From assembly GCA_022647575.1 (NCBI GenBank), contig JALCKY010000002.1, positions 452,917-516,916 on the forward strand: DNA of 64,000 nt. The letters are read 5' to 3'. Source of the stretch: Lachnospiraceae bacterium (lineage in GTDB: Bacteria > Bacillota > Clostridia > Lachnospirales > Lachnospiraceae). Each line of letters opens with the position of its first letter. The first letter of the stretch is position 1. Under the pieces are notes generated by a model. That model was given only the letters and a program-made list of their open reading frames with translations. It searched no databases and was not told where the DNA came from. The translations under genes were made by a program, and so were the position numbers. Below are positions 777 through 20,916 of the stretch, one piece after another.

Positions 777-821
777 GGTACCTTGACATTTTATACCTGT
801 TTGCATTATTATTTAGGTACC
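777..821 (+). promoter_or_regulatory. ABC exporter promoter flanked by two GGTACC operators
   Basis: TTGACA (784-789), 17-bp spacer, TATTAT (807-812). GGTACC sits at 777-782, one base before the -35, and at 816-821, just after the -10, within TTTAGGTACCTTAT. The same design, with near-identical operators, precedes the MarR gene (20871-20916). Inferred: the MarR protein represses both units. Confidence 0.7.
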
Positions 822-857
822 TTATATAATTATTCAGCTTTTTTAGGAGCATAGCAT

Positions 858-2732
858 TTGCGAAAATTATTTAAATATTTAAAACCTTATACAATATTTG
901 CCATTCTTGCCCCATTTTTTATGATTGGAGAAGTGACGGCAGATCTTTTTTTGCCGCGCCTCATGTCATTTATCGTTAATTACGGCATTACCGGCCTGGA
1001 TATCACCAGCCCTGATAACGGTTCAGAACTCGCCGTAAAGCTTTTGGATATATTCGGCGGCGGTGATGATTCTCCCATGCATCTGATCATCGTCTTTGGA
1101 ATAATGATGCTGGTTCTTACCCTGATTGGAGGTATTTTCGGCATCTGCTGCGCCTTAATGTCGGCAACAGCAGCACAGGGTTTCGGCCGGGATCTTCGCT
1201 GTGACGCATACAGGAAAGTAATGTCTTTATCCATTCAGCAGACCGATACATTTACGACCGGATCCCTGATTACACGCATGACAAATGATATTACGCAGAT
1301 CATGGATTTTATAGAAAGCCTTCTCCGCGGTTTTATACGATGTCCAATGTTTGTCATCGGCGGAATGGTTATGCTGCTTACTCTGAACCTTTCTTTCGGT
1401 TTTGTTCTTCTTTGTACACTTCCGATATTAGTCCTGATACTGTATTTTGTTCTGAAAAAAGCGATTCCCAAATATGCGGACATGCAAGACCGGCTGGATA
1501 AGGTAAACTCTGTCGTTGAAGAAAATGTTAACGGAACGCGTGTTGTCAAAGCCTACAATCGCGAAGGATATGAATGCCGCAGGTTTGATGACGCAAATTG
1601 CGGCCTCCGAAATGTAAACATGCATGTTCTTAAATTAATGGCAGTTATCCCGTCTGTACTCACTCTGATGCAGAGTTTAGCCATCATTGCCGTTATCTAT
1701 ATCGGCGGCTCAAAAATCAGTACTCAGGACCTGGGGATGACGGCTGGCTCCATTATGGCTGCCATCACATATGTTACCCAGGTCATGATGCAGATCACAA
1801 TGGCTACCAACCTGCTGCAGTCTATCTCACGGGCACAGGTTTCCGCTTCCAGAATCAATGAAATCTTACAGACAGAGCCGGTACTTAAAACGATTCCGAC
1901 TGATGCTGAACTGGCTTCTCCTGCTGCTTCAGAGCCTTCCGACGTCATTCTGTCTTTTCAGAATGTATGCTTTCAATATCCGGGCACACATGGAAAACCC
2001 GTTCTTAAAGATATCAATCTGGATATTAAAAGAGGGGAAACGCTCGCTGTCATCGGAGCTACGGGATGCGGAAAAACCACCCTCGCTTCTTTAATTCCCA
2101 GATTCTATGATCCTGTCTCAGGGAACATATTGATTGACGGCAAGCCGCTTAGTTCATTTCCTCTTTCTTCTCTGCGCAAACGTATCGGATATGTCATGCA
2201 GCAGACTGAATTGATTTCTTCTTCAGTTGCCGCAAATATACGATGGGGAAAAACTGATGCTTCTGATGAAGAAGTAAGAAAGGCTGCCGTTGCCGCACAG
2301 GCAGATTCATTCATTGAAAAAATGCCGGGCGCCTACGACTCCTCTATATCCGAAAAAGGAGCCTCCTTATCCGGCGGTCAGAAACAGAGGCTTTCCATTG
2401 CGAGGGCTCTGATCCGCAGACCGGAAATCATTATTCTTGATGATGCAACTTCTGCGCTCGATCTCAGTACCGAAACCGCCTTAAGAAATGCAGTCAGCAA
2501 ATATCTGGCACCCGGTACAACGATCATCATGATTGCACAGAGAATCGCCAGCGTAATGAGTGCCGATCGAATTGCCGTTATTGAAAATGACGGTTCTCTG
2601 CTGTACTGTGCTCCTCATGATGAATTGCTTAAAGTCAGCAATACTTATAAAGATATTTATGATTCTCAAATGCTTTCCGGTGCCTTTCAGACTGTATCCT
2701 CTTCCCTTCGTCATGGACAGGAGACAAAATGA
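858..2732 (+). CDS. Multidrug-type ABC exporter half-transporter with degenerate ATP site
   Basis: This 624-residue half-transporter has an N-terminal six-helix exporter domain (~15-325) and a C-terminal ATPase. The start is TTG at 858, seven bases after AGGAG. Walker A GATGCGKTT is at ~400-408 and the signature LSGGQ at ~504-508. The Walker B reads ILDDATS, with Asp in place of the catalytic Glu, and the switch His is Gln (IAQR, ~561). This is the non-catalytic-site subunit of a heterodimeric exporter of the BmrC/D or TM287/288 type (family knowledge). It overlaps the next gene by ATGA, so the two are translated together. Substrate unknown; regulation by the window's MarR protein is inferred from shared operators. 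Confidence 0.9.
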   Translation: MRKLFKYLKPYTIFAILAPFFMIGEVTADLFLPRLMSFIVNYGITGLDITSPDNGSELAVKLLDIFGGGDDSPMHLIIVFGIMMLVLTLIGGIFGICCALMSATAAQGFGRDLRCDAYRKVMSLSIQQTDTFTTGSLITRMTNDITQIMDFIESLLRGFIRCPMFVIGGMVMLLTLNLSFGFVLLCTLPILVLILYFVLKKAIPKYADMQDRLDKVNSVVEENVNGTRVVKAYNREGYECRRFDDANCGLRNVNMHVLKLMAVIPSVLTLMQSLAIIAVIYIGGSKISTQDLGMTAGSIMAAITYVTQVMMQITMATNLLQSISRAQVSASRINEILQTEPVLKTIPTDAELASPAASEPSDVILSFQNVCFQYPGTHGKPVLKDINLDIKRGETLAVIGATGCGKTTLASLIPRFYDPVSGNILIDGKPLSSFPLSSLRKRIGYVMQQTELISSSVAANIRWGKTDASDEEVRKAAVAAQADSFIEKMPGAYDSSISEKGASLSGGQKQRLSIARALIRRPEIIILDDATSALDLSTETALRNAVSKYLAPGTTIIMIAQRIASVMSADRIAVIENDGSLLYCAPHDELLKVSNTYKDIYDSQMLSGAFQTVSSSLRHGQETK

Positions 2733-4588
2733 CTGAATCAAAAAGACCTTCACTTAAAATAACACCGGGCGGCGGCTTCGGCGGCGGAAAAAACTTTATG
2801 AATGCCCGCGCTTCTTCTGAAAAACCTGCCAATACCCGGAAGACCTTAAAACGACTGTCAGCCTATATCGGAAAAAGTAAAATGCTGCTGTCCGTCATGC
2901 TCATGCTGATGCTTCTCATTACCCTGATTGATATCCTCGGTCCTTCTTTTCAGCAAAGAGCCATCGATACCATCTCCGTCAGCGGTGATTCCGTTTACGT
3001 TGATTTTCCGCATATGGTTCACTATCTGATCATCATGGTCATGCTGTTCCTGGTAAGTGCTGTCCTGACTTATATTCAGGGAATTCTTGCCGCAAGATTA
3101 TCGCAGAGCACAGTATATTCTCTGCGAAAAGAGCTGTTTGATAAATTTGCGCATCTTCCGGTCAGATACATTGATACGCATGCACATGGAGATCTTATGA
3201 GCCGCATGACAAATGATGCGGACAATGTATCTAACGCTGTTGCCCAATCAATCACCGTATTCTTTCAGGCAATCCTCACATTAATAGGTGCTTTCTCAAT
3301 GATGCTGTATTACAGTCCTGTTCTGACACTTGCAGCCATCGTGACAATTCCCATCACCTTTTTTGTATCAAAAATACTTGGGAACCATATGCGCAAGTAT
3401 TTCAAAGAACAGCAGATTCTGCTTGGCCGGTTAAATGGTCATGTAGAGGAAATGGTAACAAGTTACAGAACCGTGGTATCCTATGGAAAAGAAGATGCAG
3501 CTGTCAGTGAATTTTCAGAGACATCAGAGGAGCTTCGAAAATACAGCATCAAGGCCAGAGTCTGGGGTTCCATCATGGGTCCGATCATGAACTTCCTGAG
3601 CAATTTTCAATATGTTCTGATTGCGGCTGTCGGCGGTTTTCTGATATTATCGAAAGTCAGCACCCTGACAATCGGAGCAATACAGGCAATGCTCCAGTAT
3701 TCAAAAAAGTTCAGCCAGCCTATCAATATGATTGCGAATCAGTATTCCATCATATTGACAGCCCTTGCAGGCGCTGAACGTATTTTTGATGTCATGGATA
3801 CGGAGGATGAAATTGATGAGGGAAAGCAGTGTCTTGATGTTCAGTCTGTCTGCGGAGACATTGAGTTCGAGCATCTGAACTTCGGATATGAAAAAGCTCA
3901 TCCTGTTCTGAAGGATTTTAATCTTTCTGTCTGCCATGCCCAAAAAATTGCCATCGTTGGTGCTACCGGATCCGGAAAAACGACTCTGGTCAATCTGCTG
4001 ACGCGATTCTATGAACTGGATGGAGGAAAAATTACAATTGACGGTGAAGATATTACGAAAATTCCGAAGCAAAATTTAAGAAGCATGATTGCCATTGTCC
4101 TTCAGGATACAGTTCTTTTCAACGATACCATCAGAAACAATATAAAATACGGAAAACTGAATGCTTCCGATGAGTCAGTGTTCAATGCTGCCGATACTGC
4201 AATGGCTGACCACTTCATCAGCCGACTGCCTGATGGATATGATACATTGCTTTCCGAATCAGGAAATAATCTCTCTCTTGGTCAAAGACAGCTGCTTGCT
4301 ATTTCCCGTGCGGTTTTAGCCGATCCGAAGATTCTGATTCTCGACGAAGCAACTTCTTCTGTTGACACCAGGACGGAACTGCATATACAAAAAGCAATGA
4401 TGAACCTGATGAAAGGAAGAACATCTCTGGTTATCGCGCATCGTCTTTCTACCATCCGGGATGCTGATAAAATTGTTGTCGTGCATGACGGTCATATTGC
4501 CGAATGCGGAAGTCATGAAGAACTCATGAAATTACATGGTGAATACTTCAATTTATACAACAAACAATACGCCGGTGTGGCAACCTGA
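2729..4588 (+). CDS. Multidrug-type ABC exporter half-transporter, catalytic partner
   Basis: This 619-residue partner overlaps the previous gene by 4 bp. After a Gly-rich N-terminal stretch (~11-20) come six transmembrane helices (~45-330) and an ATPase: Walker A GATGSGKTT (~411-419), a degenerate signature LSLGQ (~515-519), Walker B ILDEATS with the catalytic Glu, and an intact switch His (IAHR, ~569). The two halves complement each other: this subunit's Walker motifs plus the first subunit's LSGGQ make the active site, while the other site is dead. That pattern is typical of heterodimeric type IV drug or lipid exporters in Bacillota. Export substrate is unknown. Confidence 0.9.
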   Translation: MTESKRPSLKITPGGGFGGGKNFMNARASSEKPANTRKTLKRLSAYIGKSKMLLSVMLMLMLLITLIDILGPSFQQRAIDTISVSGDSVYVDFPHMVHYLIIMVMLFLVSAVLTYIQGILAARLSQSTVYSLRKELFDKFAHLPVRYIDTHAHGDLMSRMTNDADNVSNAVAQSITVFFQAILTLIGAFSMMLYYSPVLTLAAIVTIPITFFVSKILGNHMRKYFKEQQILLGRLNGHVEEMVTSYRTVVSYGKEDAAVSEFSETSEELRKYSIKARVWGSIMGPIMNFLSNFQYVLIAAVGGFLILSKVSTLTIGAIQAMLQYSKKFSQPINMIANQYSIILTALAGAERIFDVMDTEDEIDEGKQCLDVQSVCGDIEFEHLNFGYEKAHPVLKDFNLSVCHAQKIAIVGATGSGKTTLVNLLTRFYELDGGKITIDGEDITKIPKQNLRSMIAIVLQDTVLFNDTIRNNIKYGKLNASDESVFNAADTAMADHFISRLPDGYDTLLSESGNNLSLGQRQLLAISRAVLADPKILILDEATSSVDTRTELHIQKAMMNLMKGRTSLVIAHRLSTIRDADKIVVVHDGHIAECGSHEELMKLHGEYFNLYNKQYAGVAT

Positions 4589-4628
4589 CCCACGCTTTTT
4601 ATTCTTCGCTTTCATTTTTCATATACTT

Positions 4629-4669
4629 TTGACATTCATAAATTGCTCAAATATAATAAACAAAGGAGC
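4629..4669 (+). promoter_or_regulatory. Perfect consensus promoter, very short leader
   Basis: TTGACA (4629-4634), 17-bp spacer, TATAAT (4652-4657). Transcription would begin near 4664, inside or right beside the ribosome binding site AAAGGAGC (4662-4669), leaving a leader of about 12 nt for the gene at 4676. Confidence 0.7.
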
Positions 4670-4675
4670 AAAAAA

Positions 4676-5086
4676 ATGAAAAAGCAAACTCTTTTCAGTT
4701 TTATATTCCTTGCAGCCGCAATCGTAATCGTTACGATTCTTTTGACAACCCGGACAGTCACGCCTCTGGATTTTGAAGTAAAGGAGAATGGTTTTGCCTT
4801 GACAGGACCTGAAAAGACTTCCTGCGAAATCAATTACAGTGATATTACATCTCTCGACTATAGTAATCAGGCAGACTTCGGTTCGCCGACAGACGGCGGT
4901 ACTTCATTAAACTGCAGATATGGAACCTGGGAGAATGCAGCCTGGGGAAATTACCGGAATTATACCAGCACTAAAATCAACAGCTGCATTATATGCCGTA
5001 CAGAAGATATGACTGTTGTTTTTAATTACGAAAACGATGATACAACAGAAAGTATTTACAAAGAGATCCAGAAATATTGCAAATAA
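4676..5086 (+). CDS. Small membrane-anchored protein with possible PH-like domain
   Basis: 136 residues from ATG 4676, chosen over an upstream ATG because AAAGGAGC precedes it. Residues 4-25 form one N-terminal transmembrane segment. The outside part has alternating short strands (DFEVKENGFALTG, INYSDITSLDY, CIICRTEDMTVVFNY) ending in a helix, similar to small bacterial PH-domain proteins (family guess from pattern only). It has its own strong promoter and a terminator right after the stop, so it is a single-gene unit. Function unknown. Confidence 0.7.
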   Translation: MKKQTLFSFIFLAAAIVIVTILLTTRTVTPLDFEVKENGFALTGPEKTSCEINYSDITSLDYSNQADFGSPTDGGTSLNCRYGTWENAAWGNYRNYTSTKINSCIICRTEDMTVVFNYENDDTTESIYKEIQKYCK

Positions 5087-5092
5087 TAAGCA

Positions 5093-5130
5093 AGCCCGAT
5101 AGATGCTCTGCACATCATCGGGCTGCTTTT
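5093..5130 (+). terminator. Intrinsic terminator (convergent)
   Basis: AGCCCGAT (5093-5100) pairs with ATCGGGCT (5117-5124), followed by GCTTTTATCCTTTT. It lies between the plus-strand gene ending at 5086 and the minus-strand operon ending at 5129. Confidence 0.75.
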
Positions 5131-6361
5131 ATCCTTTTAAATCCATCAGGAACTCTATAATATATTTTTCAAACACTTCCGCGGCACCCGCTGCAAAATT
5201 CCCTTTCCTGCACGAAGGATAATTTTTTTCATACAGGTCTTTCGTGACCATATACCCTGCCATACCATTGAAAAAATCCAGCAGGATTGTATTTTGGAAA
5301 GGCGAATGGGTTCTGATATTCTGCAGGGTACTTACGCATACTTCCTGCCTGCAGCCTATGATTACTGTTTGATCCGTATAAAAGAAATAAACTTCCGACT
5401 GAACATCCGGTCCGGGGACAAAGGGAAGATTTTTCGATTTTGGCGGGAATGGCATATGCCCCGGCAAAGCAAAGACTTTTTTGCACATATGGAGTCCGGA
5501 ACTGACCGGTGAGCAGCTGATGTCCGGCAGTATCTGCAGAACCGAACTTGCCAAACGCATTCCAAGCAGCGTGCTCATGGAGAATCCAAGTTCAGGCATC
5601 ATCATTTTCTGCATATTTCCCATGTCATCCATATAATCCCACACTGCTGTCAGGATTGGGCACTGGTCTGCCGAAGCACCGGTCGTATAAGCAGCCGGTG
5701 CGCCAGTGATCCGTTTAATCATTCTTTCTGCCGGTGACGCCATATCGCCGGATACTAATCTTGTGTCGCCTTCTTTACTGTTCTCAAGGACAGAAGGGGC
5801 CGTATTAACATTAAAAAGGATTCCGATATACTTTCCATCCTCTGCATCCTTTATACTGAGAACCGGTATGGTATGGTCGGATTTTCCTTTCTCATTTGCA
5901 GCTTGGATGCATCCTTTCTTTGTATCGAGAACTCTGCTTGCATTAATATGGCTTTCTGCATATCCGATTCCAAATACCGCAGATTTCAGATTTTTTTCTG
6001 CCTCTGATGCAGCTTCTTCTGTGGCCTGATGGATTGCGTCGTGAAACAGCTTCCTGCCTTCTTTTTCCCGATCCGTAACAAATTCTTCCGGTCTCCCGCT
6101 ATGAGGCGTTGAAACTGCATGTGAAGTGTGCAGCATAATATAATCGGGCTTAATTTTGAATTTCTCTGCCAGCCTGTTCCTGTGCTCATCCCATCCTGCC
6201 GGATCAATCAAGTCGAAAGATACAAAAATATACTTATGAGTATCTTCAAGAATTAAGACATGCACATATGGCGCGTCATGAACTCCTGTATATTTTTCGA
6301 CAGGATTCGGAAAAACCATGTCAGGAAAATTTATGGCCGTTTCTCCCATACCTGCTTTCAT
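5129..6361 (-). CDS. Neutral-ceramidase-like hydrolase (N-terminal-domain type)
   Basis: 410 residues, RBS AGGAAGG before ATG 6361. The N-terminus (MKAGMGETAINFP..., then SFDLID, and HTSHAVSTPHSG at ~78-89) follows the fold of neutral/alkaline ceramidases, whose metal site uses an HTHSGP-like loop. Here that loop is longer and altered, and the C-terminal ceramidase domain and a signal peptide are absent, so it is likely cytoplasmic. Family members split amide bonds of acyl sphingoids; the real substrate here is unknown. It is the last gene of a long minus-strand operon with a peptide-type importer and two MBL hydrolases, so it probably acts on an imported compound. Confidence 0.6.
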   Translation of the reverse strand: MKAGMGETAINFPDMVFPNPVEKYTGVHDAPYVHVLILEDTHKYIFVSFDLIDPAGWDEHRNRLAEKFKIKPDYIMLHTSHAVSTPHSGRPEEFVTDREKEGRKLFHDAIHQATEEAASEAEKNLKSAVFGIGYAESHINASRVLDTKKGCIQAANEKGKSDHTIPVLSIKDAEDGKYIGILFNVNTAPSVLENSKEGDTRLVSGDMASPAERMIKRITGAPAAYTTGASADQCPILTAVWDYMDDMGNMQKMMMPELGFSMSTLLGMRLASSVLQILPDISCSPVSSGLHMCKKVFALPGHMPFPPKSKNLPFVPGPDVQSEVYFFYTDQTVIIGCRQEVCVSTLQNIRTHSPFQNTILLDFFNGMAGYMVTKDLYEKNYPSCRKGNFAAGAAEVFEKYIIEFLMDLKG

Positions 6362-6380
6362 ACATTTTACCTTCCTGTTC

Positions 6381-7283
6381 TTATCCGAGATCTACAGTCT
6401 TCTCTTCAACATTCCTGATATCATACATAATTCTGACATCATGGCCGCTTACCATCTGATTCATACGGGGTGTAGATACTACACTGTCTCCCGGATGAGG
6501 TGACTTTCTCCCATAAACCGTAACCCCTTCGGGTGCAGGAGGTCCGTTATCAGGTTTTTTACCTCCCTTTCCTTCACATACTTCAGCGGTACCTGCAAGA
6601 ATGTCTCTTCCCAATGCAAGGCACTTTTCGACATAAGATGCATCAAATCTTCCGTTTCCGCCAAGGCAATAATCAAATTCACTTCGTATGCTCATGAGTT
6701 TCTGCATATTATTGACAAACTGGGAAATACTGCCGGATAAATTGCAGAATGGTCCGAATTCATCTCCGGTAAAAAGGATCCTGTTAACACGGTCAAGAAA
6801 TGCAAGACTTCCGGCAGCATGACAGGGTATCTCGAATACTTCGAGTTTTCTCCCCCCAAGTTCTATCACATCACCCTCATGTATAACCGTTTTGGGATAA
6901 TCCTCAATAAACTGAATCCCGGAAAAACTTTTATATGGCTTTGTTGCACGAGGGACTGTCTCTTCACTCATGAATGCTTCTTCAAAGTATCCATTGTTTG
7001 CTGTATGGTCGAAATGATAATGGGTGTTTATGATTCTCCTGACCGGTTTATCCGTCAGAGTCTGCAGATAAATTCTGATATTGCCGGCACCGTAGCCGGA
7101 ATCCAAAGCAACTGCTTCATCTTCGCCCTCAATAAGATACGAATAGTCACCCGAGCTGAGGATCCGCCATACTCCGTCAGCTTCTTTAAAAGATTCAAAA
7201 TACGGTTCATCCATTGGCAGCAGAGAACCATCAAGATTTCTTATTAAAACATTGTGTTTGCAGGAAAAATCCATCATCTTCAT
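6381..7283 (-). CDS. Metallo-beta-lactamase-fold hydrolase
   Basis: 300 residues. The metal-binding motif H-Y-H-F-D-H is at 88-93, with a further His in the CHAAGS segment and an Asp in FTGDEF, so a two-metal site is likely. The usual last His region (PGHG) reads LGGNGRF here, so one ligand may be missing or displaced. No signal peptide. It sits between a membrane protein (gap 30 bp) and the ceramidase-like gene (gap 19 bp) in the importer operon. RBS GGAAGG precedes ATG 7283. Reaction not known; lactonase, esterase or thiolesterase activity are all possible for this fold. Confidence 0.8.
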   Translation of the reverse strand: MKMMDFSCKHNVLIRNLDGSLLPMDEPYFESFKEADGVWRILSSGDYSYLIEGEDEAVALDSGYGAGNIRIYLQTLTDKPVRRIINTHYHFDHTANNGYFEEAFMSEETVPRATKPYKSFSGIQFIEDYPKTVIHEGDVIELGGRKLEVFEIPCHAAGSLAFLDRVNRILFTGDEFGPFCNLSGSISQFVNNMQKLMSIRSEFDYCLGGNGRFDASYVEKCLALGRDILAGTAEVCEGKGGKKPDNGPPAPEGVTVYGRKSPHPGDSVVSTPRMNQMVSGHDVRIMYDIRNVEEKTVDLG

Positions 7284-7313
7284 CTTTCAGTCCTTCCATA
7301 TTATCCCAGACAT

Positions 7314-7988
7314 TTATTGGATAATGACACCGTTTTGATAAGGTTCTTCTTCACCGGGAGTTTCACTGTATGAATTCCGCCGCTCTGCTGCCCCGATCAT
7401 AAAAATGCATATAGAAGAGAAAAGGCATGCAGTCACGGCAGCAGCTTTCATAAGCGGACTTTCACCGCTGTCTGTTAAAACGGAAGATATAAGAGCTGTA
7501 ACAGCGGTTATTGCCAGAAGGCCGGATGTTATCATGCTCCATAAGAATAAGCTTCCGAATGTTGTCCGGTATTCGTAAACCGTCATTTTGCGTTTCTTCA
7601 GGATGCAGTCAGCGAGTTTTGTCAGAAAGAGGATTAAAGAAATCGTCGACGCAGAAGAAGGGATTACCACATACCAAAGCCGGTTAGTCTCTGTCGGTCT
7701 GCTGATTCCATATAGAAATAATGCTGCTGCCATTAATCCCAGAAGCAGGTACAGTGCTTTTGAAAGGATCCAGGCTGAATCACTGCACTCTCTGGAATAG
7801 TAACTGCCGACATACTTTCTCAGGATCTTATTCCTGGTACCCTTTTTATTAGGTACCATGCTTTCGGAATAACCTGCAAAGAATTTATGATAATAATTGC
7901 TGTGATGAAATGAAGTAACTTCCATCAGTTCATTATCATATTCTTCCGTCATTCGGCGATCCCGTCGTTCAATACGGCTCTCCGGCAT
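7314..7988 (-). CDS. Four-TM protein of unknown function in importer operon
   Basis: 224 residues from ATG 7988 after GGGAGGAG. A charged N-terminal ~75 residues (RIERRDRRMTEEYDNEL...) precedes four hydrophobic segments in pairs (~80-97, 107-125, ~148-168 and ~182-200), and a short acidic tail. No enzyme motif seen. The pairs of helices with a charged N-terminus recall 2TM-repeat membrane proteins. Its place between the ATPase gene and hydrolases suggests an accessory role in the same pathway. Not recognised as a named family. Confidence 0.65.
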   Translation of the reverse strand: MPESRIERRDRRMTEEYDNELMEVTSFHHSNYYHKFFAGYSESMVPNKKGTRNKILRKYVGSYYSRECSDSAWILSKALYLLLGLMAAALFLYGISRPTETNRLWYVVIPSSASTISLILFLTKLADCILKKRKMTVYEYRTTFGSLFLWSMITSGLLAITAVTALISSVLTDSGESPLMKAAAVTACLFSSICIFMIGAAERRNSYSETPGEEEPYQNGVIIQ

Positions 7989-8010
7989 TTTTACTCCTCC
8001 CTTTCAATCC

Positions 8011-8961
8011 TCATGCATTGATTTCTTCTACCCTGCAGCAGGAAACAAAGTGGTTCGGTTCTATTTCACGAAGCGCCTGAGGCTCACTGCAGGCTTTTGT
8101 TGCATAAGGGCAGCGTGCTGCAAAACGACAGCCCGGAAGCGGATTAATTGCAGAAGATATCTCGCCCTTCAGCTGTACCCTCTTCATGGGATGCAAAATA
8201 TCCATGGATGGGATAGCCGAAAGAAGTGCTTTTGTATATGGGTGAAGCGGTCTGTTAAAAAGCTGTTCGGAGGGTGAAGTCTCAACCAGCTGCCCGAGAT
8301 ACATGACACTGATGTCATTGGAAATATGACGGACAACTGACAGGTCATGTGTTACGAACATATAAGTAAGCTGGAGTTCTTCCTGAAGATCCATCAGAAG
8401 ATTCAGGACCTGTGCCTGAATAGAAACATCCAGGGCTGAGACCGGTTCATCGCACACAATGAATTCCGGATTCAGTGCAATCGCTCTGGCGATTCCGACA
8501 CGCTGCCGGCGCCCGCCGTCCATTTCATGCGGATAGCTTAAGCGCAGTCTTTCTTCTATGCCGACCTTATCCATCAGGTATTCCGCTCTCTGTTCAAGCT
8601 CAGCACGTTTAAAGTGATGGCTTTCCTTCAGGGGTTCTTTAATAATATCTTCCACGCACATGCGGGGATCTATGGAAGAATACGGATCCTGAAAGACTAT
8701 CTGCATATTTTCTCTGACGCGGCGCAGGTTTCTGCCTTTTACATTGGTAACGTCTTCTCCGTTCAGCGTTATTTTTCCTGAAGTAGAATCCAGAAGCCGG
8801 ATAATCGTACGGCCTAATGTAGATTTTCCGCAGCCGGATTCACCGACAATTCCCATCGTTTTTCCTTTTTCGATTTTCAGCGTCACATCATCAACGGCGT
8901 GATTCGTACCGGATGCCACGCTGAAATATTTCTTTAGATGCTCTACCTCCAAAAGTGCCAT
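8011..8961 (-). CDS. oppF: Oligopeptide-type ABC importer ATPase (OppF/DppF)
   Basis: 316 residues starting at ATG 8961 (AGGAGGT nine bases upstream), overlapping the stop of the previous gene as TAATG; the longer upstream frame is rejected for lack of a ribosome binding site. Walker A GESGCGKST (40-48), Walker B FIVCDEPVSALD, and the signature reads MDGGRRQRVGIARA rather than LSGGQ, a variant common among OppF proteins. The C-terminal Cys cluster (CRFAARCPYATKAC) is the family's zinc/iron-sulfur-like region. It powers import together with OppD. Confidence 0.9.
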   Translation of the reverse strand: MALLEVEHLKKYFSVASGTNHAVDDVTLKIEKGKTMGIVGESGCGKSTLGRTIIRLLDSTSGKITLNGEDVTNVKGRNLRRVRENMQIVFQDPYSSIDPRMCVEDIIKEPLKESHHFKRAELEQRAEYLMDKVGIEERLRLSYPHEMDGGRRQRVGIARAIALNPEFIVCDEPVSALDVSIQAQVLNLLMDLQEELQLTYMFVTHDLSVVRHISNDISVMYLGQLVETSPSEQLFNRPLHPYTKALLSAIPSMDILHPMKRVQLKGEISSAINPLPGCRFAARCPYATKACSEPQALREIEPNHFVSCCRVEEINA

Positions 8962-10052: not shown

Positions 10053-10065
10053 CGTTTTCTCCTCA

Positions 10066-11914: not shown

Positions 11915-11933
11915 GTTATCCTCCGCACAAGAT

Positions 11934-11963
11934 GCAGGTGCAGACCTTATATTCTGCACCTGC
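11934..11963 (-). other. Intercistronic hairpin between binding protein and permease genes
   Basis: Arms 11934-11944 and 11953-11963 pair perfectly over 11 bp with an 8-nt loop. No T-run follows on the minus strand, so it looks like an mRNA-stabilising or processing stem that lets the binding protein be made in excess over the permeases, as in other importer operons (inference). Confidence 0.65.
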
Positions 11964-11974
11964 AATTGTCTTTA

Positions 11975-13708: not shown

Positions 13709-13709
13709 T

Positions 13710-14579
13710 TCATTTCTCCTTCTCTTGATTGTTTGAATTGAAAATCCGATCTTCATGAACACCCAGCATGTTCTTTCCTTTCAGAACACACATGCTGTCT
13801 TTATGTCCTGACCATGGTCCCCATGAACTCGGCACCTGTACCAGACTGTACCGATTTTCCAAAAGCTGATGACAAAGTTCAATGGCGTTGGGCAGACAAT
13901 CTTTACCCAGTGGAGCTCCAAATGGACGCCCATCATGATGTCCGTTAAAAATATCGTCGTAGCGTTCTCCCAAGTCCCGCATCCTCTCCAGATACGGCAG
14001 GGCAGTTTCAATTGTCGTTCCGCCTAAATGAAGGTTATAATTCAAAGCATCCCCGCAGAAAAGTGTCCTTGTTGCCTCATCAAGAAAGATCATTTCCCCC
14101 GGCGCATGCCCCGGACAGAAAAAAGCAGTCACGATTCTGCCGCCTCCGAGGTCAAACTGCTGGCCGTCTGATAAGTCATGCATTTCCGGCATTGGTTCTT
14201 CCGGCTCACGAAGATCTGTTTCAATATCATACGGATAGATTCTCGGATAATTGCGCAGCCATATGAACCTCGTATCCCGTTTCCGCATTTCCAAAGAACA
14301 GGGTATTCTGCTTCGTGCAGCCTCCAAAGGATGTATCCATATCTCTTTAAATTGCCGTGCATTGCCGGTATGATCCGGATCGGCATGAGAAATAACAACA
14401 ATGAGAGGCTTATCGGTTATCTGTTCTACTGCTCCTTTCAGATCTCCAATACCCATCCCGCAGTCAATCAGCATGGCTTTTTCTCTGCCTATCAGAAGAA
14501 AGCAGCTTGCAACATCGAATTCGTCAATTTCCCATGTATCTTTCTTGAACTGAACCATGGGATGCAGTTTTGTGTACAA
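13710..14579 (-). CDS. Metallo-beta-lactamase-fold hydrolase, first gene of importer operon
   Basis: 289 residues starting at TTG 14579 with AAGGAAGG upstream. H-A-D-P-D-H at 65-70, a third-ligand His in CPGHAPGEM, Asp in LFCGDAL and a last His in FNGHHDG complete a two-metal MBL site. A cytoplasmic hydrolase by lack of signal peptide. Its place as promoter-proximal gene before the binding lipoprotein suggests it attacks the imported compound. Lactonase and other ester-cleaving activities are possible; no specific substrate is supported. Confidence 0.85.
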   Translation of the reverse strand: MYTKLHPMVQFKKDTWEIDEFDVASCFLLIGREKAMLIDCGMGIGDLKGAVEQITDKPLIVVISHADPDHTGNARQFKEIWIHPLEAARSRIPCSLEMRKRDTRFIWLRNYPRIYPYDIETDLREPEEPMPEMHDLSDGQQFDLGGGRIVTAFFCPGHAPGEMIFLDEATRTLFCGDALNYNLHLGGTTIETALPYLERMRDLGERYDDIFNGHHDGRPFGAPLGKDCLPNAIELCHQLLENRYSLVQVPSSWGPWSGHKDSMCVLKGKNMLGVHEDRIFNSNNQEKEK

Positions 14580-14677
14580 TTAAAACCTTCCTTTCCTGTT
14601 TTCTTCGCGAAGTTTATGATTTGTGACATTTTTGAAACTGAGCTCATTCTTTTTTTCGTGTAATATTACTATATCCA

Positions 14678-14706
14678 ATTTAAATTGCTTTTAACTTTAC
14701 AGTCAA
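14678..14706 (-). promoter_or_regulatory. Putative promoter of importer/hydrolase operon
   Basis: On the minus strand TTGACT (14706-14701), 17-bp spacer, TTAAAT (14683-14678). Transcript starts about 90 bp before the TTG start at 14579. The interval up to LysR (14580-14889) is otherwise AT-rich and non-coding. Confidence 0.5.
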
Positions 14707-14823
14707 TTCCGTTTAAAACCTGTGTTTCATTCCAAAATTCGATTAAACTTCGGAGCGGGAATATTATAATGAAAGAGAAATAAATTATTTTTTTACAGCT
14801 TCTGTCTGCTGAACCGGCACGGA

Positions 14824-14852
14824 TTGACGCTGTCCGTCGATTTTGTTATTAT
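14824..14852 (+). promoter_or_regulatory. Promoter of the LysR-type regulator
   Basis: TTGACG (14824-14829), 17-bp spacer, TATTAT (14847-14852); start near 14859, upstream of AAAGGAGG at 14877-14884. Its position rules out the upstream Met codon at 14824 region as the true start. Confidence 0.6.
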
Positions 14853-14889
14853 AAAAATGCAAGCAGTATTTTTGCCAAAGGAGGCATCC

Positions 14890-15801
14890 TTGGAAACTAT
14901 TTACATTCAGTACTTTCTTGATATCGCGAGCGGATCAACCTATGAGGAAGTAGCTGACAAATACCATATCTCCCAATCCTCTATTTCAAAATCCATTGCA
15001 CACCTGGAGAACGATCTTGGAGTTGATCTGTTTGTAAAAAAACAGCATCGGGCTTCACTGACTCCCGCCGGAAAAGAATTCTATACAAAAATCAAGGATC
15101 TACAGCCTCGATTTTCTGAAATTCTGCATGATATATCGCGATATGGTTCAAGCAAAAGGATCTCCGTATGCGCAGCTCCAACCTGGGATTCCTTTAATAT
15201 GCGCTATCGTTTCCTTAATTCTGATTTTCATGACCAGTTTCCTGATATTAATGTAGAATTAGTCGAGTATAAGGATATTTACAACTGCACACCGGAAATA
15301 TCCGACGATACATTGGATTTCGGGATCATGCATCTGTTCGAACCGGTAAAAAGCAACTGTGACTATCGAATCCTCTGCCAGGATATTCTATGGGCTCTCT
15401 TTCCAAAAAATCATCCGCTTTCGGTTCTTCCGTCTGTAACACCGGCAGAATTAAAAGACTATACAATTTTTGCCAGTACGGAAACTATGAAGCATACCAT
15501 AAGGGAAATCAATTCTTCCCTTGATTTTCTGCTGCCCACATCCGATCCGTCTGAAAAATACATTATGCGCCGCGAGCAGCTTATCTACCGGACTGCCTAT
15601 GATTCCTCCCAGCACTGTACCATGCTTTACGAATCGGATATTGAAGGGCTTGCGTTAAAAAATGTATGTTCCGTTCCGATAACCGGCGTCCTTTCATTCC
15701 CTCTCGTAATCGCCTGGAAAAAGGGACGTATTCTTTCCGAATACTGTCAGACATTCCTGGATTATTTTGTCCATATGATGTCGGTTCCGGAGCATTTCTA
15801 A
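14890..15801 (+). CDS. LysR-family transcriptional regulator
   Basis: 303 residues from TTG 14890, five bases after AAAGGAGG. N-terminal winged helix-turn-helix (STYEEVADKYHISQSSISKS, then LENDLGVDLF and LTPAGKEFY), followed by a ~200-residue effector-binding domain. Divergent from the importer/hydrolase operon and upstream of MATE/esterase/amidohydrolase genes, so it is the likely regulator of both arms in response to the imported compound (context inference). Followed by its own terminator. Confidence 0.9.
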   Translation: METIYIQYFLDIASGSTYEEVADKYHISQSSISKSIAHLENDLGVDLFVKKQHRASLTPAGKEFYTKIKDLQPRFSEILHDISRYGSSKRISVCAAPTWDSFNMRYRFLNSDFHDQFPDINVELVEYKDIYNCTPEISDDTLDFGIMHLFEPVKSNCDYRILCQDILWALFPKNHPLSVLPSVTPAELKDYTIFASTETMKHTIREINSSLDFLLPTSDPSEKYIMRREQLIYRTAYDSSQHCTMLYESDIEGLALKNVCSVPITGVLSFPLVIAWKKGRILSEYCQTFLDYFVHMMSVPEHF

Positions 15802-15825
15802 CCTCACCTATGAATAATCAGCAAA

Positions 15826-15858
15826 GACCGGTTTATCCGAAAGGATGCCGGTTTTTTA
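15826..15858 (+). terminator. Terminator after LysR gene
   Basis: ACCGG (15827-15831) with ATCC pairs to GGAT and GCCGGT across a GAAA loop, followed by TTTTTTAT. It separates the regulator from the MATE gene, which has its own promoter. Confidence 0.65.
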
Positions 15859-15910
15859 TATAGACAGTAAATGGCCGCATCTCCTTTCTTCCGTTTTAGT
15901 GATGAAAACC

Positions 15911-15954
15911 GTTGCCGATTCTGAATTGACTTTAAAATCCCCGGCAACTAAATT
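15911..15954 (+). promoter_or_regulatory. MATE-operon promoter spanned by an inverted repeat
   Basis: TTGACT (15926-15931), 17-bp spacer, TAAATT (15949-15954). GTTGCCG (15911-15917) and CGGCAAC (15942-15948) form a perfect dyad around the -35, a possible operator for the nearby LysR protein. Drives 16004-19993. Confidence 0.5.
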
Positions 15955-16003
15955 CAAAATAGTAAAGGCAAATCCTTAACACTTCAGGAGAAGGAGAAAT
16001 TGA

Positions 16004-17377
16004 ATGCGCGGAGCAAGTACAGGACGTGTCGGACGGGATCTGACACAGGGTTCAATCTTCAAACTGCTTTCATCTTTTGCCGTTCCTATTATGCTTACAG
16101 GAATGGTTCAGCAGTTATATTCCATGACCGATCTGGCAATTATCGGACAGTTTGTGGGCAGTACAGGCACAGTCGGTGTTTCAACCGGCGGTGAACTGGC
16201 TGATTTTGTAACACCGGTTGCAAGTGCCTTCGCTATGGCCGGCCAGATTTATATCGCACAATTAGCCGGAGCCGGCGAACGGGAAAAACTCAAAAAGGCT
16301 GTCGGAACGCTTATCACTTTAATGCTCGGTCTTTCCGTCGTTTTCATGCTGATCACGATGGTTTTCCACGTACAGATTCTTCAGCTGCTGAACTGCCCTG
16401 AAGAAGCATGGAGCGAAGCTGTAAATTATATGATGATCACGGCTCTTGGTATGCCGTTCATTTACGGCTATAATGCAGTCAGCGGCGTACTTCGCGGCAT
16501 GGGGGAAAGCCAGCGGCCTCTCCTTTTTGTAGTCGTAGCTGCTACCATCAATATTTTCCTGGACCTGTTCCTCGTGGTCGTTATTCCCATGCAGGCTGCC
16601 GGCACCGCTATTGCTACTGTCGCATCCCAGATCGGAGCATTCGTCGCTGCGTATCTGTACATGTACAAACGACGTGAACAATTTGATTTCAAGCTTAGTT
16701 TTTCTTATTTCAAAGTCGATAAGACAGCCCTTAGGATTATCCTTAAACTTGGCATCCCTCAGCTGGTCCGTTCCATTACCGTCCATGGGTGCATGCTCTG
16801 GGTAAAGGCTAATGTCAATTCCTTCGGACTTCTTAGCTCCTCAACGTACAGTATCGGCAATAAGATTGAAAAATTTGTACTCCTCTTCGAACAGGGTGTT
16901 ACAAGTGCAGCCGGTGCTATGATAGGTCAGAATCTAGGTGCAAGGAAACAGGACAGAGTAAGAAAGACGATTATGGCCACCTTATTATTTGCGCTTGCAC
17001 TGACAACTGTCGGCGCTGTGCTTTTCCTGACAATTCCTACGCAGCTTTACAGAGTATTTACAGTAGATCAGGATGTATGTCAACTGGGTATCGTCTTCTT
17101 GAGGATTATGACATTCGGCTGTTTTGTCACTACGATTTCCGGTACGTTTAAAGCCCTGGCAACAGGCGCAGGTGCCGTTAAACTCTGCTTCATGCTTGGC
17201 ATCATGGATGGCGTCAGCCGTGTCGTCATTGACCTGATCCTGACAATGGGACTGGGCATGGGCGTGGAAGGTTTCTACTGGGGCGATGCCCTGTGCGAAT
17301 TAGTTACTTTTGCAATGGCATTTACATACTTTATCAGCGGAAAATGGAAAACCCAGAAACTGCTGATTGACCAATAA
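16004..17377 (+). CDS. MATE-family efflux transporter
   Basis: 457 residues, 12 predicted transmembrane helices. N-terminus GRDLTQGSIFKLLSSFAVPI, then DLAIIGQFVGSTGTVGVSTG and ALGMPFIYGYNAVSGVLRGM are typical MATE (NorM/DinF-like) segments. RBS AGGAGAAGGAG before ATG 16004. First gene of a three-gene plus-strand unit with esterase and amidohydrolase-fold genes, so it may export a breakdown product or the toxic compound itself, by Na+ or H+ antiport. Confidence 0.9.
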   Translation: MRGASTGRVGRDLTQGSIFKLLSSFAVPIMLTGMVQQLYSMTDLAIIGQFVGSTGTVGVSTGGELADFVTPVASAFAMAGQIYIAQLAGAGEREKLKKAVGTLITLMLGLSVVFMLITMVFHVQILQLLNCPEEAWSEAVNYMMITALGMPFIYGYNAVSGVLRGMGESQRPLLFVVVAATINIFLDLFLVVVIPMQAAGTAIATVASQIGAFVAAYLYMYKRREQFDFKLSFSYFKVDKTALRIILKLGIPQLVRSITVHGCMLWVKANVNSFGLLSSSTYSIGNKIEKFVLLFEQGVTSAAGAMIGQNLGARKQDRVRKTIMATLLFALALTTVGAVLFLTIPTQLYRVFTVDQDVCQLGIVFLRIMTFGCFVTTISGTFKALATGAGAVKLCFMLGIMDGVSRVVIDLILTMGLGMGVEGFYWGDALCELVTFAMAFTYFISGKWKTQKLLIDQ

Positions 17378-17403
17378 ACACAGAGAATACGAAGGAGGAG
17401 AAT

Positions 17404-18900
17404 ATGCCACTTTTTAAAGCCAGGACAAAATACGGCATCGTAACCGGAGTTCCGGGTAAGGAACCTCAGACAGCAATATTCAAAGGAATTCCATTCGCCA
17501 AACCGCCTGTAGGCGACATGCGTTATCATGAACCGGTCGAGCTTGACCCCTGGGAAGGCGAAATGGCCTGCGACAGATGGCCGAATGCCCCGATACAGGA
17601 ACCCAGTCCTCATTATCAGGGTCTGCCGGAATCCGAGGATTGCCTGTATCTGAACGTTTTTACGCCGGCGGAATCCCCGGATGACAATCTTCCGGTAATG
17701 GTTTGGTTCTATGGCGGAGGTTTTAACTTCGGGACAATCACCACAGAAGCTTCCGATACCATGCATCGCTGTGAAAGTGCCCGCTATCGCGGGGAAAAAA
17801 TTAATAAACGCGGAGTAATTCTTGTATGCATCAACTATCGTGTCAGCCTGATGGGATTTATGTGCCATCCCGGATTGATTGAACGCGACGGTCACTGCGG
17901 GAATTATGGATTTCTTGATCTTGTTGCAGGAATGAAATGGGTGCATGAAAACATCGCCGCATTCGGCGGGAACCCGGGCAATGTAACTATCTTTGGACAG
18001 TCTGCAGGTGCTGTAAGCTGCCGCATGCTCATGACCTCCCCTCTGACAAAAGATAAGAAATGGTTCCAAAGAGTCATTGTTCAGTCAGGATGCAGCATCA
18101 TGGATCCCGAACCATACCGTTCTTCGGAAGCTGTCGGAGACTGGTGCATGAAAGCTCTCGATTCCTTAGGACTTACCTGGGACAATCTGATTCACGACGA
18201 TCCTAAAGAGCTTGGCAGGATCATGCCCCGACGGGTATATGAGTTATATACCGGGTTAGACAATCCGCAGTTTCCGAAAAAACCGGCTATCTTTACGCCC
18301 TGTCTTGATGGCTATTCCCTTACGGCTGTCCCAGGCGTCGCTTTATATGCGGGTGACTACGACCAAAGCATTGATATCATGTGCGGCACCGTCCTTGATG
18401 ACTGGATGCAGCCTATCAAGCACTGCTTTGAGCCGATAAAAAACGATCTGGTAATCAAACGCGCCGTTGCACTTTCGCCCAGCGTTTCCTGGGGAAGGAG
18501 ACAGATACAGGCAGGTCGGAAACCGGTATATTCCTATTTCTTTGAGCGCAACATCCCGGGCGTTGATTCATCAAGCGGTAAAACCGGGCCGTATCATGGC
18601 GGCGAAATCGCTTATGAATTCGGAACTCTGGAATATATGGAGCATACTTTTACCGATTATGATCATCAGCTTAGCGAGGCAATTCTGGATTACTGGACCA
18701 ATTTTGCCAAAAACGGCAGCCCCAATGGCAGTACCCAGCCTGAATGGCCCGCATTTACGGAAGATACTCCTTTCTCCATGAATTTCCGCGATGACGGCTA
18801 CGATGCAAAAGATCTTGTTGATAATGAAAAGGCAGAGCGCGTCATAAAATGCTGTTCATCAAACCCGGGAATCATCGAAAACCTTGTACAGTATCTTTAA
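17404..18900 (+). CDS. Type-B carboxylesterase
   Basis: 498 residues, the family's usual length. Oxyanion loop WFYGGGFNFG (~101-110), nucleophile elbow GQSAGA with Ser200, and catalytic His in PYHGGEIAYEFG. N-terminal KGIPFAKPPVGDMRY is diagnostic for type-B esterases. No signal peptide, so it is cytoplasmic. AGGAGGAG precedes ATG. Hydrolyses carboxylic esters; with the MBL, ceramidase-like and amidohydrolase genes it points to stepwise cleavage of an ester- or amide-containing compound (inference). Confidence 0.9.
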   Translation: MPLFKARTKYGIVTGVPGKEPQTAIFKGIPFAKPPVGDMRYHEPVELDPWEGEMACDRWPNAPIQEPSPHYQGLPESEDCLYLNVFTPAESPDDNLPVMVWFYGGGFNFGTITTEASDTMHRCESARYRGEKINKRGVILVCINYRVSLMGFMCHPGLIERDGHCGNYGFLDLVAGMKWVHENIAAFGGNPGNVTIFGQSAGAVSCRMLMTSPLTKDKKWFQRVIVQSGCSIMDPEPYRSSEAVGDWCMKALDSLGLTWDNLIHDDPKELGRIMPRRVYELYTGLDNPQFPKKPAIFTPCLDGYSLTAVPGVALYAGDYDQSIDIMCGTVLDDWMQPIKHCFEPIKNDLVIKRAVALSPSVSWGRRQIQAGRKPVYSYFFERNIPGVDSSSGKTGPYHGGEIAYEFGTLEYMEHTFTDYDHQLSEAILDYWTNFAKNGSPNGSTQPEWPAFTEDTPFSMNFRDDGYDAKDLVDNEKAERVIKCCSSNPGIIENLVQYL

Positions 18901-18952
18901 ACATTCATCTGTACATACTTCGGAAAATACTGCTTTATAATAAGGAGACTTT

Positions 18953-19993
18953 ATGATCATAGATTCAAATATGTACTGGCTTCCCGAGGAACTTTTTACA
19001 GATACTGCTTTGCTTAATATGTTCATGTCCTGTATACCTTCCGCTAATGGCTGGTATGGAAAATTCCTTGATATCGAAGGGACCGGCAAAAAACAGATTG
19101 TTCTTGAGAAACCGCAGGGATATCAAAATCTCAACTATGTACAGGGAGATTATGAAATTGAGGTCCAATTAAAAGATCTCGCAGCCGCCGGTGCAGATAA
19201 GGCGCTCTTAAAACTGCCCGGTTGTCAGGAATGGATGTCTCTGGAACTTTGCAGGATTTTTAACGATAAGATTCATCAGCATGCAGTAGACAGCAAGGGG
19301 AAATTAATCCCTCTTGCTGCAGTTCCGCCTGACGGCACAAAAGAAAGTACAGCTGAACTCATCCGCTGTCATGACGAACTTGGAATGACTGCTGTTCAGC
19401 TCAGCGCCCACTATGGAGACAAATATCTGGATGATGATTCATTTTCCGGATTCTTTCGCGTTCTCAATGATCTGGGTATGACCGCTTATATCCATCACAC
19501 GCCCGTTCCGGTCGAATATAATACCTTGTACGAATATAACAACCTCAGGCGGTCTTATGGGCGCTGCGCTGACCAGGAAATTGCAATAGGCCGTGAGATA
19601 TTCAGCGGATTTTTCAATAAATATCCAAAAGTTAAATTTGTGCATTCCATGCTGGGCGGCGGTTTTTTTGCCATTGCTAACATGATGTTCCCAAATCCCC
19701 CAAAAACAAAAGAAACTGTCAGCCGCTTCAGAACAGAGAACGAAAATGCCAGATCCCAGTTTAAAGAACATATATATTTTGAACTTTCACATGCACAGCC
19801 ATGGGGCAGAGCGCAGCTTGAATGTGCTGTCGAGGTACTGGGTGCCGACCATCTGATATTTGGCTCATCCTATCCTGTCCGGCGGGAATGGCTGACTGAA
19901 GGACCGGCATTCATAAAAAATCTTGATATTTCCGATCAGCAGAAAGAATTAATACTTTCAGGAAACGCCATTGCTCTATACCGCCTCGGATAA
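18953..19993 (+). CDS. Amidohydrolase-2-fold protein with altered metal site
   Basis: 346 residues, ACMSD/gamma-resorcylate-decarboxylase-like TIM barrel by its motif order: an N-terminal IDSNMYWLP where family members have D-x-H-x-H-x-x-P, IHHTP (~180-184), FVHSMLGGG (~229-237) and IFGSSYPVRREW where FGSDYP is usual. Thus both His of the HxH pair are replaced (Asn6, Tyr8) and the late Asp is Ser, while middle His remain. The RBS is AAGGAG. It may use different chemistry, a different metal mode, or be non-catalytic. Last gene of the MATE-esterase unit. Confidence 0.75.
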   Translation: MIIDSNMYWLPEELFTDTALLNMFMSCIPSANGWYGKFLDIEGTGKKQIVLEKPQGYQNLNYVQGDYEIEVQLKDLAAAGADKALLKLPGCQEWMSLELCRIFNDKIHQHAVDSKGKLIPLAAVPPDGTKESTAELIRCHDELGMTAVQLSAHYGDKYLDDDSFSGFFRVLNDLGMTAYIHHTPVPVEYNTLYEYNNLRRSYGRCADQEIAIGREIFSGFFNKYPKVKFVHSMLGGGFFAIANMMFPNPPKTKETVSRFRTENENARSQFKEHIYFELSHAQPWGRAQLECAVEVLGADHLIFGSSYPVRREWLTEGPAFIKNLDISDQQKELILSGNAIALYRLG

Positions 19994-20027
19994 TTAAACA
20001 GCTTCTTCCCATCCTTTATCCATTAAA

Positions 20028-20057
20028 AGACCCTGAACAGCAAAATGTTCAGGGTCT
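20028..20057. terminator. Bidirectional terminator
   Basis: A 12-bp stem (20028-20039 with 20046-20057, AGACCCTGAACA arm) and 6-nt loop, A-run before and T-rich after, between convergent genes. Confidence 0.85.
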
Positions 20058-20082
20058 TCTGATATTGCTAATCAATCAATAA

Positions 20083-20841
20083 TCAGCTGTTTTCTTTCCA
20101 TTTCTCAAGAAGTTTTTTTAAACTTTCCTGAAGTTCTTCTTTCTGCTTCTCATCAAGCACGCTGAAAAGCTCCGTGTTCTCTTCGTCAGAAGATTCCAAA
20201 CCGGCTTTTTTTCCTTCTTCCGTAATGACAATTTCTATTCTTCTCTGGTCTTCTTCGTTTTTCTTTCTTTCAACCAGTCCTTTGTTTTCAAGTTTTGTTA
20301 TAACTTCGCTGATTGAACCTGCCTGGATATGCAGGATATCCTGAATATCCTGCTGGAGCATTTCACCATTATGACCTAAGAGTCGTAAAATCTTCATTTG
20401 TGTATCGCCATGTCCGGATCTGCGATGAAGATAATGCCCGCAAGCCCTCATTAAACTGTATAAATCATCTTTCTGCTCATATCCGAACTCTTCGTCCCGT
20501 TCTTCATGCATCCTGCCATGTCCGCTTCGGGCATCTTCTTTTCTTCCTTGATGACGTTTTCCGTCCCTGTTCTCGTCCTGATTATGTTCTTCTCTTTTTC
20601 CTTCGCGGCCTCTTTCGCTTTCATGGCCATGTTTTTCTGTATGTTCATGATTATGTTCCTGACCGCGGTCCGATCTGCGGTTTCTTCTCGAATCCGTTTT
20701 CCCGGCATTACTTTCTTCACCATCACCATTAGTCACCAGCTGACCTGCTTCTATGGAAAAATATGTTTTTCCTTTATCACAGCCCAAATTTTCAGCTGGG
20801 CAATGGTTATGGCACAATGGACAATTCGTTATTGCTGTCAT
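20083..20841 (-). CDS. MarR-family regulator with Cys/His N-terminal motif and charged linker
   Basis: 252 residues from ATG 20841 (GGAAGGAG upstream). Three parts are visible: a Cys-rich head (CPLCHNHCPAENLGCDKG, residues 7-24), a ~90-residue low-complexity linker rich in Arg, Glu, His and Asp, and a C-terminal MarR winged helix (LLGHNGEMLQQDIQDI, then GLVERKKNEEDQRR). The head could bind a metal or sense thiols; the linker is unusual. Its promoter has two operators identical in layout to those before the ABC exporter at 858, so auto-repression and exporter control are inferred. Confidence 0.85.
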   Translation of the reverse strand: MTAITNCPLCHNHCPAENLGCDKGKTYFSIEAGQLVTNGDGEESNAGKTDSRRNRRSDRGQEHNHEHTEKHGHESERGREGKREEHNQDENRDGKRHQGRKEDARSGHGRMHEERDEEFGYEQKDDLYSLMRACGHYLHRRSGHGDTQMKILRLLGHNGEMLQQDIQDILHIQAGSISEVITKLENKGLVERKKNEEDQRRIEIVITEEGKKAGLESSDEENTELFSVLDEKQKEELQESLKKLLEKWKENS

Positions 20842-20870
20842 ATTATTTTCTCCTTCCAGTGTTTTATTTA

Positions 20871-20916
20871 GGTACCTTGTTATAGTATCATTTCGCTGCA
20901 ATTTTGTCAAGGTGCC
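20871..20916 (-). promoter_or_regulatory. MarR promoter flanked by two GGTACC-type operators
   Basis: Minus strand: TTGACA (20910-20905), 17-bp spacer, TACTAT (20887-20882). Operators TTAGGCACC (ending directly at the -35) and AAGGTACCTAAAT (after the -10) are 40 bp apart. Matches the arrangement at 777-821. Confidence 0.75.

Follow-up and report, generated by a model that had tools for sequence, protein, structure and literature searches.

Why would two genes 20 kb apart, one encoding a MarR-family protein and the other the first subunit of an ATP-binding cassette (ABC) exporter, have promoters of almost the same design? The question arises in a 64,000-nucleotide stretch of a Lachnospiraceae bacterium genome (assembly GCA_022647575.1, contig JALCKY010000002.1, positions 452,917 to 516,916), referred to below as the window. 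Our answer is that the MarR protein encoded at 20083–20841 is, in all likelihood, an autoregulated repressor that also controls the unlinked heterodimeric exporter.

The two promoters have one layout, in which a GGYRCC operator touches the −35 box and a GGTACC lies past the −10 box (Table 1), with operators 39 bp apart at the exporter and 40 bp apart at the MarR gene. A preliminary description of this DNA had placed GGTACC-type operator pairs around a TTGACA-N17-TATTAT/TACTAT promoter in both positions. The two-operator layout is indeed present at both genes, but one of the four operators is GGCACC, and the proposed −35/−10 spacing holds for the MarR promoter and not for the exporter, where TATTAT stands at N18 and a spacing of N17 gives TTATTA. 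The description was also right that the other GGTACC copies in the window lack this setting: GGYRCC-TTGACA followed by a second GGYRCC is found at these two promoters only. With the second GGYRCC required 36–43 bp on, the arrangement occurs twice in the window and in none of 200 random windows matched to its dinucleotide frequencies. GGTACC alone is present in nine copies (mean of 4.4 in shuffled sequence; 1 of 100 shuffles reached nine), and GGYRCC pairs 30–48 bp apart number three, the third of which (36892/36931) is without TTGACA.

Table 1. Coordinates of the promoters, genes and protein regions; positions refer to the window unless a locus is named.
Feature	Position	Strand	Remarks
Upstream operator, exporter promoter	777..782	+	GGTACC in TTATTTGGTACCTTGA; abuts −35 box; matrix rank 4
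−35 box, exporter promoter	783..788	+	TTGACA
−10 region, exporter promoter	806..812	+	TTATTA at N17 or TATTAT at N18
Downstream operator, exporter promoter	816..821	+	GGTACC, TTTAGGTACCTTAT; matrix rank 2
ABC half-transporter A	858..2732	+	624 amino acids, TTG start; degenerate ATP site: IIILDDAT, Gln in switch loop (IAQR); TM287-like
ABC half-transporter B	2729..4588	+	619 amino acids; ILILDEAT, IAHR, LSLGQ signature; TM288 is best solved match
MarR-family repressor (predicted)	20083..20841	−	252 amino acids; N-terminal Cys head, Arg/His-rich linker, winged helix-turn-helix; PF01047 E 3.9e-15
Winged helix-turn-helix, residues 146–212	20206..20406	−	recognition helix GSISEVITKLE
Cys head, residues 7–24	20770..20823	−	CPLCHNHCPAENLGCDKG; Cys 7, 10, 14, 21 invariant in six proteins
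Downstream operator, MarR promoter	20871..20876	−	GGTACC, ACAAGGTACCTAAA; matrix rank 1
−10 box, MarR promoter	20882..20887	−	TACTAT; AACAA between −10 and GGTACC
−35 box, MarR promoter	20905..20910	−	TTGACA; N17 to −10
Upstream operator, MarR promoter	20911..20916	−	GGCACC in ATTAGGCACCTTGA; abuts −35 box; matrix rank 3
Separate head open reading frame (stop to stop)	L139 3849-4187	−	
Separate head open reading frame (stop to stop)	L130 4058-4411	+	
Separate head open reading frame (stop to stop)	L140 6458-7435	−	
Separate head open reading frame (stop to stop)	L147 2190-2627	−	

Across the source genome (11 contigs totaling 3.03 Mb, completeness 94.3%) the operators are scarce. With up to one mismatch, the 14-mer WTTAGGYACCTTRW occurs at seven places, four of which are these operators, including all three perfect matches; each of the remaining three has an altered core letter (backward control, 16 places). 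The four sites served as the template for the 14-mer, so how well they score proves nothing; what counts as evidence is its scarcity elsewhere. A 46-bp pattern of the MarR-type promoter, fixed at a spacing of 40 and therefore not covering the exporter's 39, matches two places with up to three mismatches (backward control, none), namely the MarR promoter and a place with broken operator letters, which leaves one true match. When up to two mismatches are allowed, the gapless −35/operator 16-mer WTWAGGTACCTTGACA finds five places (backward control, 14), of which three belong to the four operators and the remaining two differ at two positions each. The near-uniqueness of the operators leads us to predict a regulon of two promoters. 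The outcome that the preliminary description had named as fatal to its own proposal, the operator pair standing before many unrelated genes, was not seen in these genome-wide scans.

Independent evidence comes from other species. The MarR protein begins with a four-cysteine head, and a head-only DNA pattern of the CPxCxNHCP type, run over a genome contig collection, returned 30 stretches; we read 14 of them as real heads and the other 16 as chance frames. The head is followed by a MarR domain in four genes, from two Solobacterium metagenome-assembled genomes (MAGs; L124/L149 and L134), a Lachnospiraceae MAG (L146) and a Fibrobacteres MAG (L127). Each of these genes has two GGTACC sites in its own promoter, 40 to 55 bp apart, and the layout in L146 is identical to that of the window MarR promoter (40 bp, TTGACA-N17). 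From these eight operators of four other species we built a matrix that includes no window sequence. Its four best sites in the 64-kb window are those at 20871, 816, 20911 and 777, in that order, at thresholds where 0, 0, 0.025 and 0.025 sites are expected (mean of 40 random windows). The fifth site, at 7852, scores 14.4 (random windows are expected to contain 0.05 such sites each); it falls within an open reading frame (ORF) on the minus strand (7314–7988) and is the second of two GGTACC copies that stand 16 bp apart there (7836–7857).

Two further headed MarR genes came from other searches: L201, found with a paralogue lacking the helix-turn-helix (HTH), has two sites 46 bp apart, and L207, found by profile search, has one. 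With the window gene counted, all seven headed MarR genes have at least one AT-flanked GGYRCC in their own promoter and six have two; none of the six from outside the window was picked for its operators, and four of them also supplied the matrix. The exact AGGTACCT pair occurs at one place in five of the ten genomes behind the head loci, at the headed MarR gene in four and at a head-plus-MarR operon in Pseudodesulfovibrio (L140/L151); the backward control of this pattern also gave 16 matches, in four genomes. A strict head pattern is present in 1 of 392 genomes of the order, the source genome itself, and misses variants such as L201. A protein search of the genome contig collection with the window MarR gave 92 word-matching stretches, none of them encoding a relative. 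At the level of sequence, these comparisons provide strong independent support for the predicted operator wiring.

The protein has a MarR winged-helix domain (PF01047, 55.9 bits against a cut-off of 24.6). We place its start at the ATG of 20841, which a GGAAGGAG box precedes; the TTG start at 20910 in the ORF list falls within the promoter. The Foldseek matches listed for its structure model are MarR-type proteins, although the model is poor overall (predicted local distance difference test score of 63.6, 84–91 for the winged-HTH blocks) and too weak to judge the head. PF01047 matches 13 places in the source genome, eight of them above the cut-off, and among the MarR genes found there only that of the window has both the recognition-helix motif and the operators. 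The MarR-like paralogues L222–L226 and L230 have neither the helix motif nor an AT-flanked site, and four of them have GGYRCC with different flanks within 250 bases upstream.

This association of helix and operator extends to relatives. Among 72 MarR genes (ORFs of at least 110 amino acids, with duplicates and genes having fewer than 150 bases upstream excluded), 19 of the 29 with the helix motif have AT-flanked sites upstream, compared with 2 of the 43 without it (Fisher p 2.4e-8, to be taken as a guide only; one gene, L140/L151, entered twice as a miss). The 13 nearest profile relatives, from other genomes of the phylum with E up to 1e-20, include seven with AT-flanked GGTACC upstream (L207, L209–L211, L213–L215) and three with variant sites, GTCAGGTACTTGAC in L216 and L218 and AGGTAGCT/AGCTACCT in L212; L208, L217 and L219 have neither upstream. 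In the related MarR genes L216, L218 and L006, paired GTCAGGTAC(T/G)TGAC around the promoters is a variant of the same operator. Considered together, the four sites picked by a matrix from other species and the want of helix and sites in the other MarR genes of the source genome indicate that the window MarR very probably controls the exporter as well as its own gene, as was first suggested.

The operators and promoters, the family and operator specificity of the protein and the autoregulatory layout in its relatives can be read from the sequences themselves, and the binding, repression and release that we propose to connect them would run as follows. Dimeric MarR would bind AGGTACCT-type dyads in two places 20 kb apart, the promoter of its own gene and that of the exporter. 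At each, one dimer would occupy the −35 box and another the DNA just past the −10 box, so that RNA polymerase would be excluded from both promoters. The signal would most likely act through the four-cysteine head, by metal, iron-sulfur or thiol chemistry, or through the usual MarR ligand pocket. Signal-bound MarR would leave the DNA, exporter and repressor would both be made, and the freshly made repressor would reset the switch.

The head has the motif C-x2-C-x3-C-x6-C, with C7, P8, C10, C14, C21 and G24 invariant across six aligned proteins. L207 keeps the four cysteines as CPCCPNHCTKENLNC; L201 retains them as well and lacks the HCP histidine and the second CP. The head had been described as Cys/His-rich; the missing HCP histidine in L201 indicates a four-cysteine rather than a Cys/His site. 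The conservation of the cysteines makes metal, iron-sulfur or thiol chemistry at the head plausible. A Pfam scan up to E 0.1 gave no match covering the head, and we found no description of a MarR subgroup with a four-cysteine head in Pfam, NCBIfam and the literature searched.

The head is not always fused to MarR. In four Desulfovibrio-like genomes it forms the end of an ORF of its own, rich in Cys/His or in Gly/Arg, with a MarR gene lacking the head next in line; these operons are preceded by paired GGYRCC copies 57 to 60 bp apart. Fusion in one lineage and adjacency in another are the usual sign of joint work. The head motif turns up in other proteins too. Three Coriobacteriales proteins (L122, L123, L142) of 304–329 amino acids, counted from stop to stop, look membrane-like on inspection; they end in CPLCxNHCPLSSPxCN and have no apparent MarR domain. 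Head-only small proteins are found in L138 (minus strand, around 1657), L119 (298–323) and L120 (4258–4283); among head-only proteins, one has a His-rich tail and lies between two genes that we take to be UbiD- and UbiX-like, and one is Lys-rich with 87–89 amino acids. In one Solobacterium MAG, a presumably rubrerythrin-like gene (L124 1343–2026, plus strand) follows the headed MarR gene at a distance of about 0.6 kb, a hint of oxidative stress.

A second head-bearing gene lies on contig 3 of the source genome (L033 8200–8577, minus strand). It encodes a 125-amino-acid paralogue of the window MarR that aligns with the head and with the first and last (dimer) helices and lacks residues about 149–220, the winged HTH. 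Over the head and dimer regions the proportions of synonymous and nonsynonymous differences between the two are 0.78 and 0.22, a ratio of 0.28 (bootstrap 0.18–0.42), which argues that the paralogue was kept by selection, perhaps mostly before the loss of the winged HTH. Of 391 genomes of the class, the source genome alone was seen to carry it. There it lies 35 bp behind a gene that we assume to be amidohydrolase-like; no operator was found in the 17-kb stretch around it. The head could be a portable sensor module, fused in Bacillota and Fibrobacteres and separate in Desulfovibrio-like bacteria, and the paralogue might pair with MarR, like an Id protein in animals, and pull it off both promoters. 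We offer these two proposals jointly and with considerable doubt; if true, the fused and separate heads and the HTH-less paralogue would make this form of MarR control a two-part affair. Literature matches for a MarR protein without a DNA-binding domain included none fitting by title.

What the head would sense bears on the best-surviving alternative. CP is a heme motif, and CP pairs are present in the head. The MarR protein could sense heme or porphyrin and the exporter could remove heme, as with PefR and PefCD, the latter an ABC-type exporter. In Streptococcus agalactiae, PefR is a MarR-family repressor that gel shifts place at both of its operons and that heme releases; its inverted repeat is confined to two places, with a single copy before pefAB and a pair, one member of it inexact, before pefRCD, a wiring like that proposed here, as far as the cited passages of PMC2858704 describe it. 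The PefR repeat given there, TAAAATAGTTCTCACGATAACTA, differs by eye from the AGGTACCT-type operators of the window, and L201 has lost the second CP and the histidine and retains the four cysteines. Heme sensing is on balance an unlikely identity for the signal. The proposal of a repressor acting on two promoters is common to both cases.

The exporter subunits are adjacent half transporters, each with a transmembrane domain (PF00664) and a nucleotide-binding domain (PF00005). Their sequences, with one degenerate ATP site, in subunit A, agree with the earlier assignment to a heterodimeric ABC exporter. As to a multidrug identity, none of the best 25 NCBIfam matches listed per subunit reaches its cut-off. 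Such exporters can adjoin a MarR gene: among 40 exporter regions chosen from one match listing, two of them from the source genome, 13 have a MarR gene directly before the exporter pair. Three of these 13, from one genus, have AGGTACCT upstream (L096, L098 and L099; that of L098 lies some 450 bases ahead of the ORF), and two further MarR genes of the phylum (L213, L214) have a AGGTACCT-type site upstream and an ABC gene behind. Such regions suggest that MarR control of exporters through this operator class is ordinary; what is distinctive in the window is the cysteine head together with the 20-kb separation. AGGYRCCT occurs elsewhere in seven other regions of the 40, and at L097, where the source genome has its other MarR-exporter locus, the promoter motif is a different one and is repeated.

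The evidence for the putative exporter link comes from the window genome and from the operator match, and several observations weigh against it. Exporters were searched in six head-bearing genomes, four with a headed MarR (G434–G437) and two with the head only (G438, G439). The search gave 34 matches in five of the six, 30 of them with loci, and one weak site, inside the matched stretch (L169). In three of the four headed-MarR genomes, 16 exporter matches have no convincing operator within their 1.5-kb flanks; the fourth, G437, has no exporter match. The 16-mer WTWAGGTACCTTGACA matched the MarR promoter and nothing else in G434, G435 and G436, and in G437 it missed the MarR promoter and gave three two-mismatch matches (backward controls in G434–G437: 11, 9, 7 and 10). 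The nearest exporter relative (G009, same genus, 46%) shares no operator with the nearest MarR gene of G009; a candidate was rejected, the longest shared word being a 10-mer. The helix motif behind the 72-gene comparison was written after the sequences had been viewed, and the relatives compared are not independent. Lastly, the backward controls of the motif patterns match as often as, or more often than, the patterns themselves, so match counts alone prove nothing; the positions of the matches do. Upstream of the exporter, a chance ORF contains CPYCHNH, which might have been left over from a MarR head; this was also rejected, since blastn of the region against the MarR gene aligned the shared operator once and gave E values of at least 1.4 for everything else.

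These observations could be accommodated if MarR bound strongly at its own promoter alone, the exporter sites being a recent weak copy with no effect on expression. The upstream exporter site is off consensus (TTTGGTACC) and has the lowest of the four matrix scores, and the exporter link was found in no other genome examined. The downstream exporter site, on the other hand, has the second-best matrix score in the window, and the operator positions relative to the −35 and −10 boxes are kept at both promoters, which makes a silent copy quite improbable.

Alternatively, a different regulator might bind both promoters, the MarR gene being merely one of its targets. One candidate is a gene that we take to be TetR-like; it shares the exporter's strand and ends just upstream of the exporter, at position 351. 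It is back to back with a presumably flavodoxin-like gene, and a back-to-back neighbor is the more usual partner of a TetR-type gene. In other species, the same operators are found before the gene for the headed MarR itself, and they track the MarR recognition helix; we give this explanation only a slight chance. That the two promoters resemble each other by accident has next to no probability: GGTACC is a short palindrome and mildly over-represented in the window, but the layout is observed twice against none in 200 random windows, is near-unique genome-wide and was predicted from other species. Control of both promoters by the MarR protein is the explanation that we retain.

The system would supply a concrete operator for the MarR subgroup with a four-cysteine head, and its tie to an exporter means that signal and cargo can be sought together. 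Literature searches combining the MarR family with GGTACC, ABC transporter and operator found no paper; for AGGTACCT with a MarR-family repressor the sole match concerns a catabolic operon, and among the matches listed for AAGGTACC with MarR none was recognized as this system. The AdcR/ZitR zinc regulators have the MarR fold in common with the window protein, for which metal sensing is only proposed; the AdcR operator differs from those of the window, and the NCBIfam AdcR model gives the window protein 24.7 bits, below its cut-off of 175. Six MarR regulons are described in lactic acid bacteria, and the passages concerned do not name the window operator (PMC3616900). Nearest among the iron-sulfur MarR literature matches listed is a report that, in its cited part, has SlyA sensing iron (PMC12506092). 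TM287/288 (PDB 3qf4) is likewise built from two half transporters. Among solved structures, subunit B matches TM288 best; for subunit A, TM287 comes first among bacterial chains, behind P-glycoproteins. In the MarR-ABC-ABC operons of relatives (L096, L098, L099 and ten further regions), a MarR gene accompanies a two-gene exporter, as here; there it adjoins the exporter and no head was seen, whereas the window gene is distant and headed. Like the window exporter, TM287/288 has one degenerate ATP site, and PefR, to our knowledge, has no cysteine head. The wiring of one MarR protein to two promoters is itself already known from PefR, which controls its own operon and a second efflux operon; in the cited passages of that work (PMC2858704), pefR shares an operon with the exporter and the ligand is heme or porphyrin, whereas the window MarR gene lies 20 kb from the exporter that it would control.

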